This document shows positions 1 to 10,968 of a DNA stretch of 21,107 nt, one piece after another. This stretch comes from a virus. Within the stretch, counting starts at the first letter, position 1, and every line of letters starts with the position of its first letter. Location: positions 1 through 21,107 of IMG/VR virus record IMGVR_UViG_3300020433_000062; one strand, written 5' to 3'. The position numbers and the translations under genes were made by a program. The notes below the pieces were generated by a model, which saw only the letters and a program-made list of their open reading frames with translations, was not told the origin of the DNA and did not search any database.

Positions 1-583
1 AGAACCCTTCGATACTACTGGGTTCCCCTTCTGGCAGGACGATGAAGCACCCGAAGAACCCACTGATAAGACCATTGCTGATGCAGCAGAGTCACTTGCA
101 CAGGGTAAAATCGTTGGTTGGTACCAAGGACGTGGTGAAATAGGTCCAAGAGCACTAGGACACCGTTCTATCCTTGTAAACCCCAGATTACCGAACGCTA
201 AGAACCATTTGAACAAACAGGTCAAGCATAGAGAACACTTCCGACCCTTCGGTGCTGCGGTACTACTGGAAGATACACAACAATACTTCGATTTTAAGGG
301 TAAGAGTCCATATATGAACACATGTGCATACGTTCACGACGAAGAATTGTTGTCTGTGACACATGTGGATGGCAGCAGTCGCATACAAACAGTGGAGGGT
401 GATGATTGTTTTGCTAAGTTGCTTCGTAAGTACAAAGAACTGACAGGTGACTCTGTTTTACTCAATACATCACTGAATATGGGTGGTAAACCAATAGCAT
501 CTAAGATGTGGGAAGCAAAAGAATTATTCTCTAAGAAGGGAATAGAAGATATGTATATCGGAAATGATAAATTGTCTAAATAA
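1..583 (+). CDS. Carbamoyltransferase, C-terminal part (5' end outside window)
   Basis: The reading frame is open from base 2 to the TAA at 581-583 (193 codons visible). The signature GRGEIGPRALGHRSIL, followed shortly by HLNKQVKHREHFRPFG, is typical of the C-terminal domain of the NodU/CmcH/HypF-like carbamoyltransferase family. That family transfers a carbamoyl group from carbamoyl phosphate to a sugar or other hydroxyl. A later stretch, DSVLLNTSLNMGGKPI, is also a conserved family block. The N-terminal domain, with the metal and carbamoyl-adenylate site, lies upstream of the window. Such genes occur in T4-like cyanophages; the substrate is unknown, and modification of sugars or cell-surface glycans is only a guess. 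The family call is secure; completeness and substrate cannot be judged here. Confidence 0.88.
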   Translation, partial: EPFDTTGFPFWQDDEAPEEPTDKTIADAAESLAQGKIVGWYQGRGEIGPRALGHRSILVNPRLPNAKNHLNKQVKHREHFRPFGAAVLLEDTQQYFDFKGKSPYMNTCAYVHDEELLSVTHVDGSSRIQTVEGDDCFAKLLRKYKELTGDSVLLNTSLNMGGKPIASKMWEAKELFSKKGIEDMYIGNDKLSK

Positions 584-605
584 AGGTGCATACGATATGC
601 ATTTA
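582..605 (+). promoter_or_regulatory. Distant Shine-Dalgarno with intervening hairpin
   Basis: AAAGG (582-586) lies 18 bases before the ATG at 605, too far for normal use. The gap holds a perfect inverted repeat: TGCATA (587-592), loop CGA, TATGCA (596-601). If this folds, the Shine-Dalgarno sits about 3 bases from the start codon. T4 genes 25 and 38 are known to use hairpins of this kind. Folding and function are inferred. Confidence 0.4.
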
Positions 606-1000
606 TGGCAGAAGTAAAGGAAAAACCAAAAGGTATCATCGGCAAACTAAAAGAGAAGGTTGATGACAAAGAGGAACAACTAGCATACCTAGCGACTCTT
701 ATAAGAGTGATAGTTCTAGTGTGGTCGGCAGGAATATTGACGTTAAACTACGTTAAAATACCAGGTTATGATGCAGGAGAAAAGATTGATCCAACTTTCA
801 TAGCTTCGGTCTTCACAGGAACACTAGCTACTTTTGGCGTCCAAGCGGGAGGTAAGAAAAAGAATGGTGATGGTAGTGGTAGTGCCAACATATCTAAAAA
901 AGATATGGAATTCCTTATCGCTAAGGCATCAGAGACTGCTCCTGCACAAACTATCAGGATTGAATCAGGTCCTGTAAAAATAGTCCCAGATACAAAGTAA
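605..1000 (+). CDS. Small two-helix membrane protein, unknown (holin-like topology)
   Basis: This 131-residue protein is not recognised. It has a charged N-terminus rich in Lys/Glu (1-25), a hydrophobic segment at about 28-48, a short loop, a second weaker hydrophobic segment at about 62-80, and a hydrophilic tail that begins with a GGKKKNGDGSG linker. Two membrane helices with charged ends fit a small holin or another inner-membrane phage protein, but no sequence signature proves this. It opens a run of four plus-strand genes, three of them with clear membrane segments. The start ATG at 605 has an unusual ribosome-binding arrangement with a hairpin between Shine-Dalgarno and ATG. The next gene starts 4 bases after its stop. 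Coding status is well supported by context; function is not. Confidence 0.7.
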   Translation: MAEVKEKPKGIIGKLKEKVDDKEEQLAYLATLIRVIVLVWSAGILTLNYVKIPGYDAGEKIDPTFIASVFTGTLATFGVQAGGKKKNGDGSGSANISKKDMEFLIAKASETAPAQTIRIESGPVKIVPDTK

Positions 1001-1004
1001 AATT

Positions 1005-1223
1005 ATGCAAAAACTTGTTAATGCTATCGCCATTTTTGGTGGTGTGGTGTCACTTTCAGTCGTAGGACTGGGTGGATATGTATTCATCCGTAAGGATGCA
1101 ATCATTGAAGATATTAAAACAAAAGTAACAGGAGCAGCACTCGGTGCAGTGACTGGTTCGTTACCTGACATGGTTCCAGACGCTCTACCTGACTTCTCTG
1201 GACCCGCTTTACCGATCAAATGA
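1005..1223 (+). CDS. Small single-pass membrane protein, unknown
   Basis: A 72-residue protein with one N-terminal hydrophobic segment (about 5-27), then a charged stretch (RKDAIIEDIKTKVTG) and a Pro/Asp-rich tail (residues about 52-70) with repeated P-D elements. There is no signal-peptidase-like site with small residues, so an N-terminal membrane anchor is more likely than secretion. It sits 4 bases after the upstream membrane protein gene, and its stop codon overlaps the next start (ATGA at 1220-1223), so the genes are probably cotranscribed and translationally coupled. No function can be assigned. Confidence 0.65.
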   Translation: MQKLVNAIAIFGGVVSLSVVGLGGYVFIRKDAIIEDIKTKVTGAALGAVTGSLPDMVPDALPDFSGPALPIK

Positions 1224-1777
1224 AGAGCAGGAACATACTTATAGCGACAGTGGGTGGTCTGGTAGGACTCTCACATATAGGTATGATTGCACTCCTCGTA
1301 TCACGAGTTGGAGTTAAAGACCAGATACCACTTATCAGTCCACCAGTAGGACCATATACATCATATGCTATATCAGCATCTAAGGATGGGTATAAGGTAA
1401 GTTATCAAGCAAATGACCCTAAAACTATGGTCAAGAGCACATCAACTAAGGTCAAAGGTCTAACAAAGAAAACAGAAACTACTGTTGTAGATGAGTATAC
1501 AATGGATGGTAAGACCCATTTAGGTGTACTAGGCATGGCAGAGGCAAATGCACTCAACGTAGCATGCATCAAGGCAGAAGGTGGTGGTGAACAGACAGGC
1601 AAGGTAGTAGGTGCTGCTGTTGGTACTGCTGCTGGTGCAAAGGTAGTTGCTGTACCATTTGTAGGTCCAGTTCTAGGAGGTCTTGTAGCACTAGGTGCTG
1701 CTGATAAAGGTGCCGACATAGGTGGTCAGATAGCGACTGAATGGAGTGAAGCGTGTGACCCTGATACAACCGATTAA
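1220..1777 (+). CDS. Membrane-anchored protein with glycine-rich C-terminal region, unknown
   Basis: This 185-residue protein has an N-terminal hydrophobic anchor (about 6-28), a polar middle (40-120) and a Gly/Ala/Val-rich stretch at 121-170. Regularly spaced glycines there (for example GKVVGAAVGTAAGAKV and VGPVLGGLVALGAADKG) resemble a glycine-zipper membrane hairpin as found in some pore-forming or envelope proteins. Cysteines lie at about 115 and 179. The start overlaps the upstream stop as ATGA, which supports coupled translation. The last 32 bases overlap the next gene in another frame. Glycine-zipper proteins often insert in or span membranes; whether this one does, and why the phage needs it, is unknown. 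Confidence 0.68.
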   Translation: MKSRNILIATVGGLVGLSHIGMIALLVSRVGVKDQIPLISPPVGPYTSYAISASKDGYKVSYQANDPKTMVKSTSTKVKGLTKKTETTVVDEYTMDGKTHLGVLGMAEANALNVACIKAEGGGEQTGKVVGAAVGTAAGAKVVAVPFVGPVLGGLVALGAADKGADIGGQIATEWSEACDPDTTD

Positions 1778-2555
1778 TATAAACGATGTCAATATATTTG
1801 ACATAACATTGCCCCCGATCACGCAAAGATATAGCGTGACACCAGGGGCATTGCCATTTTATAACCCAGTAACGGTACCAGTTGGTGTACCTTTGATTCT
1901 GATGCCTGGATGTGTAGAAGCACACCCAGAAAGTAAACCACAGAACCCAAATGATAACTTAGTCAAGGATGATGAGGACGGAGCAAAGGTATATTGTGAT
2001 GCTGGTATGCCATCCTTTGATGCGATGGACTATACACCAGAGAATTTAATAATAACGAGAGAAATAGAGACACCTGTGGTAGAAGCACCACCCGCACCAG
2101 AGACACCAGAAGTAGAAGCACCAGATATACCACCCACAAACGAAGAACTTCCCTGCCCTGGACCAAATGCACCTAGAATAGGTGACATAGCACAGAACAA
2201 GGAAGAGAAAGTATCAGGTTTTGAAAAACAGATTGACCCTGTAACTAATAAGGAAATCTGTGTGATATTGTATGAGGATATACCACCATTAGAAGCACTA
2301 TTACCAGACGTTCAGACAGTGAGTACCACCGCAGTTATAGCAACAGTTGCTACGGGATCTGCACTCCTAGCGAAACCTCTTGCAGACCTGTTGATGAGGA
2401 CTTTTCGCCCCGCCATAAAGAAGGGATTGACCACTTTCCAAACCAAGGTTTTGAAGAAGAAACCGAGGCAGTTAAGTCGCTCTGAGATCCAGACGAATCA
2501 GTATCGGAAAAAGAAAGGTTTAGATCCTTTTTCTCCTCCGAAGAAGAGGGGTTAA
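1746..2555 (+). CDS. Proline-rich protein with possible membrane segment and basic tail, unknown
   Basis: The frame runs 269 codons from a GTG at 1746 (another GTG is at 1755); the first in-frame ATG is much further in. Regions seen are an N-terminal beta-like segment (1-55), an acidic part, a Pro/Glu/Ala-rich linker (108-140, with repeats such as EAPPAPETPEVEAP), a weak hydrophobic segment (about 191-212), and a strongly basic tail (KKKPRQLSRS, then KKKGLDPFSPPKKRG). It may be anchored with the Pro-rich part extending to one side of the membrane. Its last 206 bases overlap the end of the opposite-strand gene. Start choice is uncertain because no good Shine-Dalgarno is visible and the gene overlaps the upstream one by 32 bases. 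Function unknown. Confidence 0.65.
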   Translation: MKRVTLIQPININDVNIFDITLPPITQRYSVTPGALPFYNPVTVPVGVPLILMPGCVEAHPESKPQNPNDNLVKDDEDGAKVYCDAGMPSFDAMDYTPENLIITREIETPVVEAPPAPETPEVEAPDIPPTNEELPCPGPNAPRIGDIAQNKEEKVSGFEKQIDPVTNKEICVILYEDIPPLEALLPDVQTVSTTAVIATVATGSALLAKPLADLLMRTFRPAIKKGLTTFQTKVLKKKPRQLSRSEIQTNQYRKKKGLDPFSPPKKRG

Positions 2556-3183
2556 GTTGATGGACGTGTGGTTTCACTACATGTACACCTTCCACAACGA
2601 CATCAGCACATATCTTATGATACGGTGAGTTTTTGTGGAACCGAATTCCTTCCTTGTAGAGTTCACCACAGTTTTTTAATCTTGCTATCTCAAAGTCTAA
2701 TCTTTTATTGGCGATGTTTTGTGTTTGTAATGCTATCTGTGTCTCTACTGCTAGTTTACACTGCTCTTGTGCCTTTTTATCTAATGGTATTGACCATGTT
2801 GCAGACACACCAACAGATGCGTTCAGTTGATCCTTCTGACCTGTACGAGTAGGCATGTAATATAAAATATTCCCTGGATTGTCGATCTGACCGTCATCAT
2901 CAGCGTCATGTATGTCGTACACTGGGTCATTCCAATACGCTTCGTATGGTTTTTGTCCAGAAATTGATCCAGTGACGTAGGGAGTTATGTTGAGGGTACT
3001 ACCTTGACACTGGATACCATTACCATATGTGTTTGTTATATACGGTCCTTGTAAAACTTGAATAGCTTGATTGGTCACTGACCCACTGCTATTAGCGATG
3101 GGTGATGCAGTAGCACTAACACCACCAACAGTTTCAGCACGAACACTAGGCATAAACCCAGTGATAGCAAGGGATATCCCTAT
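2350..3183 (-). CDS. Exported protein, unknown, lacking a canonical start codon
   Basis: The frame codes for an export-signal-like stretch (YLSAIGISLAITGFMPSVRA, then ETVGG), a Ser/Thr/Gly-rich segment, a motif DADDDGQID resembling a calcium-binding acidic loop, a helical segment with charged repeats (NIANKRLDFEIARLKNCGEL), and a Ser-rich tail of about 70 residues. Cysteines recur (QCQ, QCK, NCG, ICADV). No ATG, GTG or TTG lies between the upstream gene's coding region and the signal core. The options are ATA at 3183-3181, which overlaps the upstream TAG, ATG at 3153 (which would remove the signal core), or a far-upstream start at 3345 that would overprint the neighbour. I place the 5' end at the ATA. 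The 3' 206 bases overlap the convergent plus-strand gene. I believe similar proteins occur in marine T4-like phages; function unknown. Confidence 0.62.
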   Translation of the reverse strand: MGISLAITGFMPSVRAETVGGVSATASPIANSSGSVTNQAIQVLQGPYITNTYGNGIQCQGSTLNITPYVTGSISGQKPYEAYWNDPVYDIHDADDDGQIDNPGNILYYMPTRTGQKDQLNASVGVSATWSIPLDKKAQEQCKLAVETQIALQTQNIANKRLDFEIARLKNCGELYKEGIRFHKNSPYHKICADVVVEGVHVVKPHVHQLNPSSSEEKKDLNLSFSDTDSSGSQSDLTASVSSSKPWFGKWSIPSLWRGEKSSSTGLQEVSLGVQIP

Positions 3184-3608
3184 TGCTGAAAGATACTGGT
3201 TGTGTCTGTGACGCTTTGGATAGTGGTGGTTCGATTTATCACGGTGTGATTCGACAACCCTGGTCCGCTGTATGTCTCTGTGAATTGGAAGTTCGCACCT
3301 GGCGTTGTCTGTGTAAACGTCGGTTTTGTATCCACTCCTGTCCATGTTGAAGCAACTCCTTCAATAGTTACATTATTAGTTGTAGTTGTTGGTGATAGAT
3401 TACCAGATGCTGTAACACCAGTGCCTGTTGCGGTCCACTGGTACCCAGTATTATAATCCATCGAATTTATAGTCTCAGTGACTGTCGTAGTCGTCTCAGT
3501 GTGAGACGTCATACTACCTTGGGTGAAATTAGGCACCACAGGCACTGCAAACACTGGGTTTACGCCCATGGCAAAGCATATAAGAAGTAGTTTTATGTTA
3601 CTCCTCAT
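3180..3608 (-). CDS. Exported Thr-rich protein, unknown
   Basis: This 142-residue protein starts with a good signal peptide (MRSNIKLLLICFAMGVNPVFA, cleavage probably before VPVVPN). The mature part is rich in Thr/Ser and aromatic residues with alternating polar pattern, suggesting beta structure. I chose ATG 3608 over the GTG at 3617 because AGGTGA lies 5 bases before the ATG, at normal Shine-Dalgarno distance; the GTG directly follows the previous stop. It is the middle gene of three minus-strand genes. A block near the middle of the mature part (TPGANFQFTETYSGPG) resembles one in the neighbour at 3618-4124, so the two may be diverged duplicates. Function unknown; a periplasmic, outer-surface or virion location is possible. 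Confidence 0.7.
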   Translation of the reverse strand: MRSNIKLLLICFAMGVNPVFAVPVVPNFTQGSMTSHTETTTTVTETINSMDYNTGYQWTATGTGVTASGNLSPTTTTNNVTIEGVASTWTGVDTKPTFTQTTPGANFQFTETYSGPGLSNHTVINRTTTIQSVTDTTSIFQQ

Positions 3609-3617
3609 ATGTCTCAC

Positions 3618-4124
3618 CTATCTCACTGTTAGTTCGCTGACCACCTGTCCAGTCGCTTGTGTACCAGCACCACCAGCAGTTATTGCAATGGTTCCTGATG
3701 TATCGATTGTACCCGCTAGACTACCCGCTGACCCTGCTGCTGTTGATACTTGACTGGAAAAGTTTCCAACCTCACCAACAGTCGGTGCACTACCTGATAT
3801 AGCATCACCTTGGGTGAATGACTGAGTAAAGCTCCAACTCTCCCCTGCTGTTGCCTGGGTTGCTGATAACGTAGGTATAGAACCAACACCTGATGAGATA
3901 GTCATACTACCTATGGATGCTGTTGCACTACCGCCTGTTGGTGTGTACTGTGTGGTCACATTGTTACCACTTACAGAGTACGTCGAACCAATACGCTCAA
4001 CCTGTGTTGCTGCTGCGTTTACGTTTAACTGAACTGATGAACTTAACTTATGTGTGATGTCTGCATGAGCAGCACCTACACCTAAGAAAGGCATCATACC
4101 GAAGAAGATTAATAATCGTTTCAT
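3618..4124 (-). CDS. Exported Ser/Thr/Gly-rich protein, unknown
   Basis: A 168-residue protein with a clear signal peptide (MKRLLIFFGMMPFLGVGAAHA, cleavage before DITHK). The mature part is low in charge and rich in Ser, Thr, Gly, Ala and Val, typical of beta-rich extracellular or fibre-like proteins. It contains TAGESWSFTQSFTQGD, which resembles a block in the following gene product. This is the first gene after a minus-strand T4-type late promoter (4156-4149), so it is probably made late together with the next two genes. GAAGGTAG lies about 11 bases upstream of the ATG. Possible roles are a minor virion component or an envelope-acting late protein; nothing in the sequence decides. Confidence 0.72.
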   Translation of the reverse strand: MKRLLIFFGMMPFLGVGAAHADITHKLSSSVQLNVNAAATQVERIGSTYSVSGNNVTTQYTPTGGSATASIGSMTISSGVGSIPTLSATQATAGESWSFTQSFTQGDAISGSAPTVGEVGNFSSQVSTAAGSAGSLAGTIDTSGTIAITAGGAGTQATGQVVSELTVR

Positions 4125-4148
4125 GATTTTTTATACTACCTTCACCCA

Positions 4149-4156
4149 TATTTATA
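4149..4156 (-). promoter_or_regulatory. T4-type late promoter for the minus-strand exported-protein genes
   Basis: On the minus strand bases 4156 to 4149 read TATAAATA, the exact T4 late promoter sequence recognised by the gp55 sigma factor with the sliding clamp. It lies 25 bases before the ATG at 4124, leaving a short leader that contains GAAGGTAG. It is correctly oriented and lies in the only long noncoding gap of this region. Confidence 0.75.
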
Positions 4157-4182: not shown

Positions 4183-4211
4183 TTGAAAAAACGATACAAC
4201 TGTACTAAATA
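4183..4211 (+). promoter_or_regulatory. Possible sigma-70-like promoter for hsp20
   Basis: TTGAAA (4183-4188), a 17-base spacer and TAAATA (4206-4211) form a -35/-10 pair with a good -35 and a weak -10. It lies 52 bases before the hsp20 ATG, divergent from the late promoter on the other strand. CTAAATA at 4205-4211 could instead be a degenerate late promoter. Either reading gives a leader of about 45 bases. Confidence 0.4.
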
Positions 4212-4262: not shown

Positions 4263-4697
4263 ATGAGAACATTAAACTTCTCGTCCAGAGATATGGACAA
4301 GATCTTTGACGCTGCAATGACTTACAGCGTTGGATTTGAAGATCTATTCAACAGGATGCATTCATCGGCATCAATCCACACATCTTACCCACCATATAAC
4401 ATAGTCAAAGAGACTGAATCAGAGTGGAGAATCGAGATGGCACTAGCAGGATGGTCTAAGGATGATATAGAGATTAGTACAGAAACTAACGTCCTAACCA
4501 TTAAGTCTAAGGCAGAACAGGAATCAGATGGAGACTTTATTCATCGTGGAGTTGCCAAGAGGTCATTCACTAAGACATTTAACATCGCAGATGATGTAGA
4601 AATAGGTGACATCACATACGAAAACGGACTATTGAACATCAAACTTACTAAGATAGTTCCAGAGAGTCAGAAACGAAAAGTCTATGACATAAAGTAG
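4263..4697 (+). CDS. hsp20: Small heat shock protein, Hsp20/alpha-crystallin family
   Basis: A 144-residue ATP-independent chaperone that binds unfolding proteins. The N-terminal arm (1-40) includes MDKIFDAAMTYSVGFEDLFNRM; the alpha-crystallin domain runs from about 41 to 135 with WRIEMALAGWSKDDIEI and the hallmark YENGLLNIKL near its end. It ends in a short basic tail (KRKVYDIK) with a degenerate I/V-x-I anchor. The start has a strong AAGGAG 4 bases before the ATG. Hsp20 is a marker gene of T4-like marine cyanophages, generally thought to help virion assembly or protect proteins during infection. It stands alone: divergent gene upstream, terminator downstream. Confidence 0.95.
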   Translation: MRTLNFSSRDMDKIFDAAMTYSVGFEDLFNRMHSSASIHTSYPPYNIVKETESEWRIEMALAGWSKDDIEISTETNVLTIKSKAEQESDGDFIHRGVAKRSFTKTFNIADDVEIGDITYENGLLNIKLTKIVPESQKRKVYDIK

Positions 4698-8023: not shown

Positions 8024-9033
8024 GTTTTCTAAAAGATATCGTAAAAGATATTGGTAATGAGTATGCAGGCATCGTTAGTGACGGTGTATCAGCAGGAGAC
8101 GTACAGTCTTTTATTGACACAGGAAGTTATGTGTTCAATGCAGTAGTTTCTGGTTCTATCTTTGGTGGTCTACCTTCTAATAAGATCACTGCTATTGCAG
8201 GAGAGTCTAGTACAGGTAAGACATTCTTTTGTCTGAGTGTTGTCAAGCATTTCTTAGAGTCAAACCCTGATGCAGGAGTTGTATACTTTGAATCAGAGTC
8301 TGCCATCTCTAAGGATATGATTGAGTCCAGAGGTATAGATTCTAACCGTATGATTATAGTTCCTGTGGTCACAGTACAGGAGTTTAGACAACAAGCAATC
8401 AAGATTATTGATAAATACTTGGCACAGAAGGAAGAGGAAAGGAAACCTCTAATGTTCTGTCTTGATTCTTTGGGTATGCTTTCTACCTCTAAGGAGGTCG
8501 ACGATACTGAACAAGGTAAAGACACAAGAGACATGACAAGAGCACAGGTTGTCAAGTCTATCTTCCGAGTTCTGACACTGAAACTAGGTAAAGCAAACGT
8601 ACCTATGTTAGTTACTAACCACACCTACGACGTGGTTGGATCTTACGTTCCCATGAAAGAAATGGGTGGTGGAAGTGGTCTTAAATATGCAGCAAGCACG
8701 ATTATCTATCTCTCTAAGTCGAAAGAGAAAGATGGTAAAGAAGTGATTGGTAATATAATCAAATGCGAGACTAAGAAGTCTCGTTTCACAAAGGAGAATG
8801 TCAAAATTGAAACACGTTTATTTTATGATGAACGTGGATTGGACAAGTATTACGGACTATTGGAACTGGGTGAGAAACATGGAGTCTTCGAGAGAATCGG
8901 GACTCGTTATCGCATTGGTGAATCTAATGTTTTTGCTAAGTCTGTCCTTGCCGATCCTAACAAGTACTTCACAGAAGAAGTAATGGAGAAGTTAGATGAA
9001 GCAGCACAAAAAGAATTTACCTATGGATCTTGA
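8020..9033 (+). CDS. uvsX: UvsX recombinase (RecA family)
   Basis: A 337-residue RecA-type strand-exchange protein that coats single-stranded DNA and drives recombination-dependent replication in T4-like phages. Walker A is GESSTGKT (residues 61-68); Walker B ends in CLDSLGML with D149; the block [23 protein letters not shown] corresponds to the loop-2 and following strand region. T4 UvsX is about 390 residues, so this form is shorter, as in marine relatives. It starts inside the gp43 stop (ATGA), suggesting coupled translation with the polymerase. The 3' end overlaps the next gene by 11 bases. Confidence 0.96.
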
Positions 9034-9586
9034 CAAGTACATCAAAGTATACGATAATGCACTTGATGTAAATCTATGTCGCAATATCTTACATTCAATT
9101 AAGAATGTTGAAATGAAGAGGTGGGATCGTGGTGGTCGTCCTCAGTTCAATGAGTTCAACATTACTGATCACGCAGAATCAACTGATCATCCAGACGATA
9201 TCTGGAACACCATACACAATCAAGTCATCCAAGCAGTCAAAAATGTATCTAACAGATACATGGATGAAGTCGGGTGCCAACAGCAATGGCCATACTCAAA
9301 TGCTTTGGAACAAGTCAGACTGAAACACTATCAGGTAGATCAGAATGATAGATTTGATGAGCATGCAGACGTGGGAGACCATGCATCTGCTCGTAGATTT
9401 CTCGCAATGTTTTTCTACTTAAATGATGTAGAGAAAGGTGGTGAAACAAAGTTCGAGCATCGCTCGATCAAACCAGTTCAAGGTAGATGCCTAGCATTTC
9501 CTCCTATGTGGATGTTCCCACACTCAGGAGCAGCACCTATAACTGAGGACAAATACATTATTGGAACCTATTTACATTACGTTTAA
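9023..9586 (+). CDS. 2-oxoglutarate/Fe(II)-dependent oxygenase (prolyl 4-hydroxylase-like)
   Basis: A 187-residue enzyme predicted to couple 2-oxoglutarate decarboxylation to hydroxylation of a substrate. The iron triad is visible: H114-x-D116 in DEHADVG and the distal H167 in FPHSG. K177, ten residues further, is the expected 2-oxoglutarate-binding Lys. The jelly-roll strands around [19 protein letters not shown] and IGTYLHYV fit the prolyl 4-hydroxylase alpha subunit fold. I prefer ATG 9023 (11-base overlap with uvsX) to ATG 8996, because [14 protein letters not shown] is a natural family N-terminus. Marine T4-like phages often carry several of these genes; the substrate is unknown. The TAATG overlap with gp41 places it firmly inside the replication operon. 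Confidence 0.92.
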
Positions 9587-10968
9587 TGCCAAGCATAGAA
9601 ACTATTGCGATCAGTAAACTCATTACCAGTGAGGAATACACACGCAAAGTATTACCTTTTATAAAGGAAGATTACTTTGAAACACTGGACATGAAGACAC
9701 TGTTCGGTGAGATAAATGATTACTTTACAAAGTACGATCAAGTACCTGAGATTAATGCCTTAAAAATTGAGATAGATAAGAGGAAAGATCTTAGTCAGGA
9801 AATTGTAACAGAGATTGAAAAGTTTCTTGACGAAAGTATTGACAAACAACAATATAATGATGACTGGTTAGTAGAAACCACAGAGAAGTGGTGTAAAGAA
9901 CGTGCTATCTATCTTGCTCTAATGGATAGTATTAAGATTGCTGACGGTCAGGATAAGACACGTCAAAAGGATGCCATTCCACACATAATGTCGGAAGCAT
10001 TAGGCACATGTTTTGATGAAACAGTAGGGCATGATTACATACAGGACGCAGATGAAAGGTACGACTTCTATCACAAAAAAGAAGACAAAATTCCATTCGA
10101 TCTTGAATACTTCAACAAGATTACAAAAGGTGGTTTACCTAGCAAGACTCTCAATGTCGCACTTGCTGGTACAGGTGTCGGGAAGTCTCTATTCATGTGC
10201 CACGTCGCTAGTTCCTGTCTCATGCAGGGGAGGAACGTTCTCTATATTACACTTGAAATGGCAGAAGAGAAAATTGCTGAACGAATTGACAGCAACCTCC
10301 TCGATGTCCCGATCAAACAATTAAGTGACCCTCTGTTTACTAAGCAACAGTTTAGAAATAAAGTAGATGTATTGAATAAGAAGACACAAGGTAGGATAGT
10401 TATAAAAGAATACCCAACAGCATCAGCACATGTAAATCATTTCAAATCATTATTGAATGAGTTGTCTATGAAGAAGGGATTCCAACCTGACATTGTGTTC
10501 ATTGATTATCTAAACATCTGTGCGAGTGCTAGATATAAAGGAACTATCGTAAACTCATACACTTTTGTTAAAGCGATTGCAGAAGAACTCCGTGGTCTTG
10601 CAGTTGAATGCAATGTACCAATCGTCACTGCTACTCAGACTACTCGTGCGGGTTATGGGAGTAGTGATGTTAGTCTTACTGACACAAGTGAGTCTTTCGG
10701 TCTCCCTGCAACTGCTGACCTTATGTTTGCTCTTATTTCTACCGAAGAGTTAGAACAACTAGGACAGATTATGGTCAAGCAGTTGAAGAATAGATATAAT
10801 GACCCTACCATACACAAACGTTTCATTGTCGGTATTGACAGAGCGAAGATGAGGTTGTATGATTGTGATCAGAAAGCACAAGAGGATATTGTTGATGCAG
10901 GGGACACCCTCAAAGATAACTTCCTTGAACTCAAAACTCAAAACAAATTTGACGGTTTTAAAATATGA
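9586..10968 (+). CDS. 41: Replicative DNA helicase, T4 gp41-like (DnaB family)
   Basis: A 460-residue hexameric 5'-3' helicase that travels with the gp61 primase at the fork (T4 gp41 is 475). The N-terminal part is helical (1-160). The RecA-like motor begins near 180 with ITKGGLPSKTLNVALAG; Walker A is GTGVGKS at about 195-201; YITLEMAEEKIAERID is the DnaB-type motif with the catalytic Glu; Walker B is DIVFIDYLNIC near 305; VTATQTTRAGY carries the sensor Gln. The C-terminal tail (YDCDQKAQEDIVDAG) is acidic. Start and stop overlap neighbours (TAATG, ATGA). Confidence 0.96.
   Translation: MPSIETIAISKLITSEEYTRKVLPFIKEDYFETLDMKTLFGEINDYFTKYDQVPEINALKIEIDKRKDLSQEIVTEIEKFLDESIDKQQYNDDWLVETTEKWCKERAIYLALMDSIKIADGQDKTRQKDAIPHIMSEALGTCFDETVGHDYIQDADERYDFYHKKEDKIPFDLEYFNKITKGGLPSKTLNVALAGTGVGKSLFMCHVASSCLMQGRNVLYITLEMAEEKIAERIDSNLLDVPIKQLSDPLFTKQQFRNKVDVLNKKTQGRIVIKEYPTASAHVNHFKSLLNELSMKKGFQPDIVFIDYLNICASARYKGTIVNSYTFVKAIAEELRGLAVECNVPIVTATQTTRAGYGSSDVSLTDTSESFGLPATADLMFALISTEELEQLGQIMVKQLKNRYNDPTIHKRFIVGIDRAKMRLYDCDQKAQEDIVDAGDTLKDNFLELKTQNKFDGFKI

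Follow-up and report, generated by a model that had tools for sequence, protein, structure and literature searches.

Results

The window analysed here, the whole 21,107-base virus record IMGVR_UViG_3300020433_000062, derives from a T4-like cyanophage. Its first 6 kb are matched by 404 phage records, all of them named Synechococcus, Prochlorococcus, cyanophage or marine, with P-RSM6, S-WAM1 and P-SSM4 at the top of the list. Our subject is a cassette of three minus-strand genes in this region (2350-4124), here called A, B and C, which lie behind the late promoter motif TATAAATA and encode proteins with export-type N-termini, as the first-pass annotation of the window, made from the sequence alone, had noticed. 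It had also noted that the flanking genes run the other way, and every immediate neighbour is indeed on the plus strand. However, its picture of an isolated minus-strand island did not hold. The convergent plus-strand genes at 605-2555 belong to the same late module, and the two halves together may form a system by which marine cyanophages disrupt the envelopes of their hosts.

Gene A (4124..3618, minus strand) encodes a predicted exported protein of 168 amino acids that belongs to phrog_564, corresponds to gp167 of Syn9 (T4-GC 237) and is named 'OMP1 protein' in some records. Gene B (3617..3180, minus strand) encodes a predicted exported all-beta protein of 145 amino acids when read from a GTG codon, although an ATG at 3608, preceded by AGGTGAG, is the likelier start. 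B is a member of DUF6322 (PF19847; 139.6 bits against a curated cut-off of 30.6, Pfam E 5.3e-41) and of phrog_650 (E 3.3e-63), and corresponds to gp166 of Syn9 (T4-GC 236). Gene C (3345..2350, minus strand) encodes a predicted exported protein of 331 amino acids assigned to phrog_848/phrog_1755, the counterpart of gp165 of Syn9 (T4-GC 235). The numbers T4-GC 235, 236 and 237 for C, B and A are those used in P-HM1 and S-SM1. Among 50,697 phage records searched by tblastn, relatives of C, B and A were found in 421, 402 and 408, respectively.

Judged by eye, A (MKRLLIFFGMMPFLGVGAAHA/D) and B (...NPVFA/V) have classic signal peptides of the Sec type, and that of C (SAIGISLAITGFMPSVRA/E) appears only after about 50 extra residues. 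Because the start codon and the frame of C are conserved inside B, the long N-terminus of C is not a slip of annotation, an explanation that we considered and ruled out. In the counts of relatives given here and below, the window's own locus (L009) and open or cut genes were left out. A home-made rule combining hydropathy with an A-X-A motif, which does not tell cleaved signals from anchors, was positive for A in 114/114 relatives, for B in 95/120 and for C in 134/137, and for none of 55 Hsp20, 91 DUF6450 and 119 D proteins. It also passes the single-anchor proteins PS (100/101) and GZ (72/83) of the plus-strand half. For PSSP7_044, the B orthologue of P-SSP7, the depositors remark on a possible SignalP signal.

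The three open reading frames (ORFs) of the cassette stood as first described, but their layout needs two corrections: B and C share 166 nt (3180..3345, minus strand), and the 3' end of C overlaps that of the opposing gene D tail to tail over 206 nt (2350-2555). The extent of the latter overlap varies widely between relatives. Of 160 loci, 147 have a B/C overlap of exactly 166 nt, nine have one of 172 or 178 nt, and four have other values. In a sample of 154 B genes (130 distinct, five dropped), the start codon of C was kept in 130 of the 130 distinct genes and its frame was open in 129. Synonymous reshuffling of B kept the start in 42% and the open frame in 11% of cases, and random synonymous recoding kept both in 4.8%, with a maximum of 13/130 over 100 replicates. 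Synonymous variability in B falls modestly, from 0.82 upstream to 0.75 in the overlap. Despite this small drop, we take the overlap to be dual-coding on the strength of the conserved start and frame. Such a two-frame overlap is unusually long and constant for phage genes.

The plus-strand half begins with a small protein (605..1000) of the DUF6450 family (PF20048, phrog_2714/721; 113.1 bits against a cut-off of 25, Pfam E 5.4e-33), which is putatively a holin-like inner-membrane protein and has one hydrophobic segment by our own hydropathy cut-off. It is followed by PS (1005..1223, phrog_568), a small single-anchor protein, by GZ (1220..1777, phrog_605), with an N-terminal anchor and a Gly/Ala-rich segment, and by D (1746..2555, phrog_570), a Pro-rich protein with a basic C-terminal tail, convergent with C. 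Many records label phrog_568 'plasmid stability', which appears to be a mislabel; the protein resembles a small single-anchor membrane protein of the module. On the other side of the cassette, hsp20 (4263-4697, plus strand) is divergent from A and marks the module border.

A late promoter had been claimed for the cassette, and this claim is supported by the position of the motif but not by its frequency. The TATAAATA motif (4156..4149, minus strand) lies 32 nt before the ATG of A, and it occurs three times in the window against a mean of 1.23 expected, a count reached in 16 of 100 shuffles; we therefore discarded its unremarkable frequency as evidence. Its position, in contrast, is conserved: of 110 distinct regions upstream of A, 99 have [ACT]TAAATA or CTATATA starting at -45 to -25, and from -120 to -46 the former occurs in no bin and the latter once. 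The CTATATA pattern was added after the upstream sequences had been looked at. A second run with both patterns on 107 distinct upstreams of A gave, besides the peak, eight hits at -150 to -121 and one at -105 to -91. A CTAAATA motif at 576..582 (plus strand) lies 29 nt before the first ATG of the DUF6450-PS-GZ-D operon, and another at 4205..4211 (plus strand) precedes hsp20. Both patterns together fall at -30 to -16 of DUF6450 in 62 of 88 upstreams, with six more at -45 to -31, and at -60 to -46 of hsp20 in 27 of 47, with 18 at -75 to -61, where one sequence can count in two bins. Inside the operons and further away they are rare or absent between -45 and -16: two and two of 91 for PS in the two bins, 0/80 for GZ, 1/113 for D, 0/118 for B, 0/37 for pol and 0/16 for uvsX. 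Scattered hits at -150 to -121 number eight for A, 12 for D, five for GZ, two for uvsX, 18 for hsp20 and two for DUF6450. The sequence NATAAATA has been described as the late promoter of S-PM2 (PMC2984593). We take the motifs and gene directions to mark two late operons that converge on each other, DUF6450-PS-GZ-D and A-B-C.

The AlphaFold2 model of B is all-beta, with two strands of 22-23 residues (mean predicted local distance difference test score (pLDDT) 84.0, predicted template modelling score (pTM) 0.47), and that of C combines beta hairpins with a 42-residue helix (mean pLDDT 73.6, pTM 0.44). Fold searches of the PDB with these two models returned many weak matches and none at E <= 1e-3. 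Many of the weak matches were either ring- and pore-forming proteins, i.e., the flagellar L ring, lysenin, aerolysin, binary-toxin translocases and FliF, or phage tail and collar proteins, and the resemblance to rings or pores in these models is a hint at most. The VIA Z score reached at most 4.2 for C, from the helix only, and 3.7 for B. When the protein sequences were searched against solved structures, the best E values were 0.48 for C, 0.11 for A and 0.16 for B. A viral fold library yielded six matches for B at E <= 1e-3, of which the two named ones are phage proteins without a function. The profiles of A and B match each other over 59 columns with a probability of 95%. In an alignment of 70 rows that spans three phage types, the cysteines of C at mature positions 43, 126, 156 and 176 never vary, which fits an extracytoplasmic location of the protein.

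Examination of the gene neighbourhood in relatives, which the first-pass annotation had suggested as a check, showed that the cassette recurs as half of a conserved convergent module. The four commonest gene strings, which account for 67 of 165 loci, all carry DUF6450, PS, GZ and D on the plus strand followed by C, B and A on the minus strand, and where the contig reaches beyond A they continue with plus-strand hsp20 and pol, in some cases also uvsX; 14 of the 67 are without a GZ hit. D had its best hit on the minus strand in 19/165 loci, perhaps by chance hits of a Pro-rich query. The module is not specific to T4-like phages: MED4-184 and T7-like cyanopodoviruses also have its core. In MED4-184 (38 kb), DUF6450-A-B-C is convergent with D-PS. 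Of 80 loci related to the C locus of MED4-184, 62 have all six genes; the rest are without one or more, and many of these are short contigs. In the podovirus 9515-10a, a D-like gene, DUF6450, B and C share one strand and are located between the tail-fibre region and the terminase small subunit, and PSSP7_042-045 of P-SSP7 lie in the same place. Depositors of the P-SSP7 record remark on two transmembrane regions in PSSP7_043, the DUF6450 protein, and on one in PSSP7_042. In both phages D is named by resemblance only (Pro-rich, with a C-terminal hydrophobic segment and a basic tail), and the D model gave no hit in 9515-10a. The T7-like phage P-SCSP1d also carries C, B and DUF6450. Among 80 podovirus-type loci, 25 have D-DUF6450-B-C, 43 have DUF6450-B-C and none has A. 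In 9515-10a (locus L004), the B gene (8657-9028) lies almost wholly within the frame of C (8665-9606) and is unannotated in the record.

The same families in the same order have been catalogued as T4-GC 218, 414, 219 and 234-237 (Syn9 gp161-gp167), as PHROG 570, 848, 650 and 564, and as Pfam DUF6450 and DUF6322. They have so far been described as separate genes of unknown function, whereas here they appear as one late module. None of the literature that we searched was seen to treat them as a single late module or to discuss their spread to podoviruses or their alternation with endolysins, although other papers may do so, and DUF6322 was not met at all.

A further set of observations concerns the relation of the module to free endolysins. 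In the podoviruses P60 (P60_gp37) and S-CBP42 (S-CBP42_0014), a lysozyme gene lies one ORF downstream of the tail fibre, which is the place of the module in P-SSP7 and 9515-10a; as the stretches of P60 and S-CBP42 have no labelled terminase small subunit, this slot is fixed by the tail fibre alone. Using a profile built from an alignment of eight cyanophage endolysins, we found no GH19-like endolysin in 15 module-bearing records (10 named phages and five contigs, possibly fragments), and both positive controls were found. Conversely, C was found in none of nine cyanophage records with such an endolysin, where the same C profile was positive in six of 13 control records. The corresponding Fisher p of 1e-4 is descriptive, since the records are related to one another and had been selected by trait. 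This test did not include Ma-LMM01, on which the endolysin profile was not run; C, B and DUF6450 were not found in that record. Four Pfam hydrolase families were run only on the 10 module-bearing phages, S-PM2 and Syn5. Amidase_2 gave no hit in the 10 named module-bearing phages, and in the window no module protein matched a peptidoglycan hydrolase family of Pfam or PHROG.

S-PM2 shows the reverse case: C, B and DUF6450 were not found, RegA adjoins Hsp20 where the module would sit, and there is a free T4-type lysozyme, a 169-residue Phage_lysozyme (PF00959) frame whose annotation reads 'putative lysin'. A gene labelled 'lipoprotein precursor' is close by. The lysin is annotated shorter than the 169-residue frame, and with the lipoprotein gene (L357, 2000-2218 and 2939-3301) it is possibly a lysis cassette. 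In S-CREM2 RegA likewise adjoins Hsp20, and two lysozymes, gp169 and gp170, are annotated; as a GH19 protein, gp169 is below the Pfam cut-off (E 0.0016). The GH19-like endolysins (S-CREM2 gp169, P60 gp37, S-CBP42_0014) and the S-PM2 lysin alternate with the module across cyanophages. They are enzymes of the lysozyme type whose genes, as annotated, have no signal peptide, and they follow the tail fibre in P60 and S-CBP42; we saw no sequence relation to A, B or C.

Discussion

Holin-endolysin-spanin lysis cassettes are known from lambda, T4 and T7. The module described here resembles them in consisting of late genes, in placing a small putative membrane protein beside exported ones and, in podoviruses, in occupying a site where other phages carry a lysozyme. 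It differs from them in having no recognisable endolysin, spanin or lipobox, more components and a dual-coded B/C pair. The residue after the likely cleavage site is D in A, V in B and E in C, and in the window's proteins, by reading, no o-spanin lipobox cysteine was found. The first-pass annotation had described the late exported proteins as non-lytic-looking; the podovirus position and the non-co-occurrence with endolysins point the opposite way. That the cassette is not explained by T4 biology, on the other hand, was borne out for a set of export-signal proteins behind a late promoter.

We propose, with a probability of about one half, that A, B and C make up the exported half of a module by which marine cyanophages achieve late lysis or envelope disruption, rather than a set of virion parts. 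The late RNA polymerase would transcribe both convergent operons, DUF6450-PS-GZ-D and A-B-C. The DUF6450 protein may then act as a holin-like protein of the inner membrane, with PS, GZ and D as candidate partners there, D being placed at the membrane only presumptively. A, B and C would be exported by Sec and come together either in the periplasm or on the outer membrane. As infection ends, they would there break the outer layers or bridge them, the job done elsewhere by an endolysin and spanins. Every functional step of this scheme is one that we infer. None of the viruses examined was found to have both the block and a free wall-cutting enzyme, which makes the module a good candidate for how these marine cyanophages burst their hosts.

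Several observations weigh against this proposal. Holins, by the yardstick used here, have at least one and typically two or three membrane segments, and by the hydropathy cut-off 93 of 115 DUF6450 proteins have one, 21 have two and one has none. Neither a hydrolase domain nor a matching fold came out of Pfam and structure searches with A, B and C. The endolysin gene of the podovirus S-B28 lies elsewhere than next to the tail fibre. PF00959 lies inside a 925-residue frame of S-SM1, SLT inside a 961-residue frame of P-SCSP1d, and a sub-threshold M15 hit inside a 977-residue frame of S-SSM4; because the frames are so long, they suggest tail or internal virion proteins. Module-bearing phages could also have a hydrolase of a family that was not searched. 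Nor is the alternation strict: Syn5 is without C, DUF6450 and all five hydrolase models tried, and neither C nor a GH19-like enzyme was found in PSS2 and S-CRM01. DUF6450 relatives exceed the cut-off in three of the nine endolysin phages (S-N03, MA10 and S-B68), in S-N03 between neck and baseplate genes, and DUF6450 may therefore be a general partner. Finally, the mutual exclusion of module and endolysin could stem from phage clades or habitats and not from function; the records were chosen by trait. As a separate observation on Syn5 (L345), gp55-gp57, located between structural genes, have no clear Pfam hit.

The first-pass annotation had offered virion parts, envelope modifiers or surface-exclusion factors as functions. 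Envelope disruption is now favoured over virion parts, which we consider unlikely. As virion-associated proteins, A, B and C would decorate the particle or aid adsorption to cyanobacterial envelopes, and the late motif and the conservation in hundreds of cyanophage records agree with such a role, as does a faint structural resemblance of B to tail and collar proteins of phages (best E 1.4e-3). However, Sec-type signals are unexpected on proteins that are assembled into virions in the cytoplasm, and one cassette is common to T4-like and T7-like phages. S-SM1 virions were analysed by mass spectrometry (PMC3037559), and the orthologues in the S-SM1 record are labelled 'hypothetical' where other genes are labelled 'virion structural', a weak argument from record labels only. 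Export signals would also suit surface exclusion or superinfection immunity, in which late exported proteins mask or alter receptors against progeny or rivals, and the cassette is common to phages of the same hosts; C even has a weak, non-significant fold hit to TraT (E 3.3). T4 Imm and Sp act early, whereas the motifs here are late, and exclusion would not predict the absence of C from endolysin-carrying phages, so we regard this explanation as rather improbable. Remodelling of the envelope for uptake or stress during infection, instead of lysis, seems to us the least probable of the three. It draws on pstS and phoA among the S-SM1 genes past hsp20 and on the OMP1 label of A, but these neighbours vary, with hli genes beside the cassette in P-HM1, and the core in podoviruses lies within the late tail-fibre/terminase region.

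The lysis proposal can be taken further, in a form that we hold only tentatively and judge doubtful as a whole. Most marine T4-like and many T7-like cyanophages might lyse their hosts through a trans-envelope machine without a classical endolysin, having either none or an unrecognised hydrolase, in which a holin-like DUF6450 trigger acts together with the inner-membrane proteins PS, GZ and D, and the outer layers are broken by the exported proteins A, B and C, which perhaps form an oligomeric beta ring. The module would then be swapped between phage families as a replacement for a free endolysin. Lysis genes have been described for freshwater cyanophages, e.g., the holin-like ORF70 of MaMV-DC (PMC12843271) and ORF123/ORF124 of PaV-LD (PMC9096620). 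The literature that we searched identifies none for phages of the Syn9 or P-SSP7 type. Cyanophages are said to lack the T4 r genes for lysis inhibition (PMC2984593); a study from 2026 on the timing of lysis by Syn9 does not settle whether a holin-endolysin mechanism applies (PMC13371907); and PMC4646655 makes no mention of holin, lysis, endolysin, lysozyme or transmembrane. Marine picocyanobacteria are killed in large numbers by the abundant T4-like and T7-like cyanophages. If the proposal is correct, the question of how they lyse their hosts becomes testable with named genes (Syn9 gp161-gp167 and PSSP7_042-045), and these phages would have a lysis system without any recognised component that is exchanged across phage families.

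A host origin of the cassette was also considered. Scanning bacterial genomes with two patterns, a weak test, gave nine loci, and in all nine the four genes A, B, C and D are found together, just as they are in cyanophages, which speaks against such an origin. Cyanophage-like contigs (L166-L174) are filed in metagenome-assembled genome bins or single-cell genomes of unrelated bacteria and of an archaeon; one of them (L171) comes from a 188-kb contig filed under Nonlabens.

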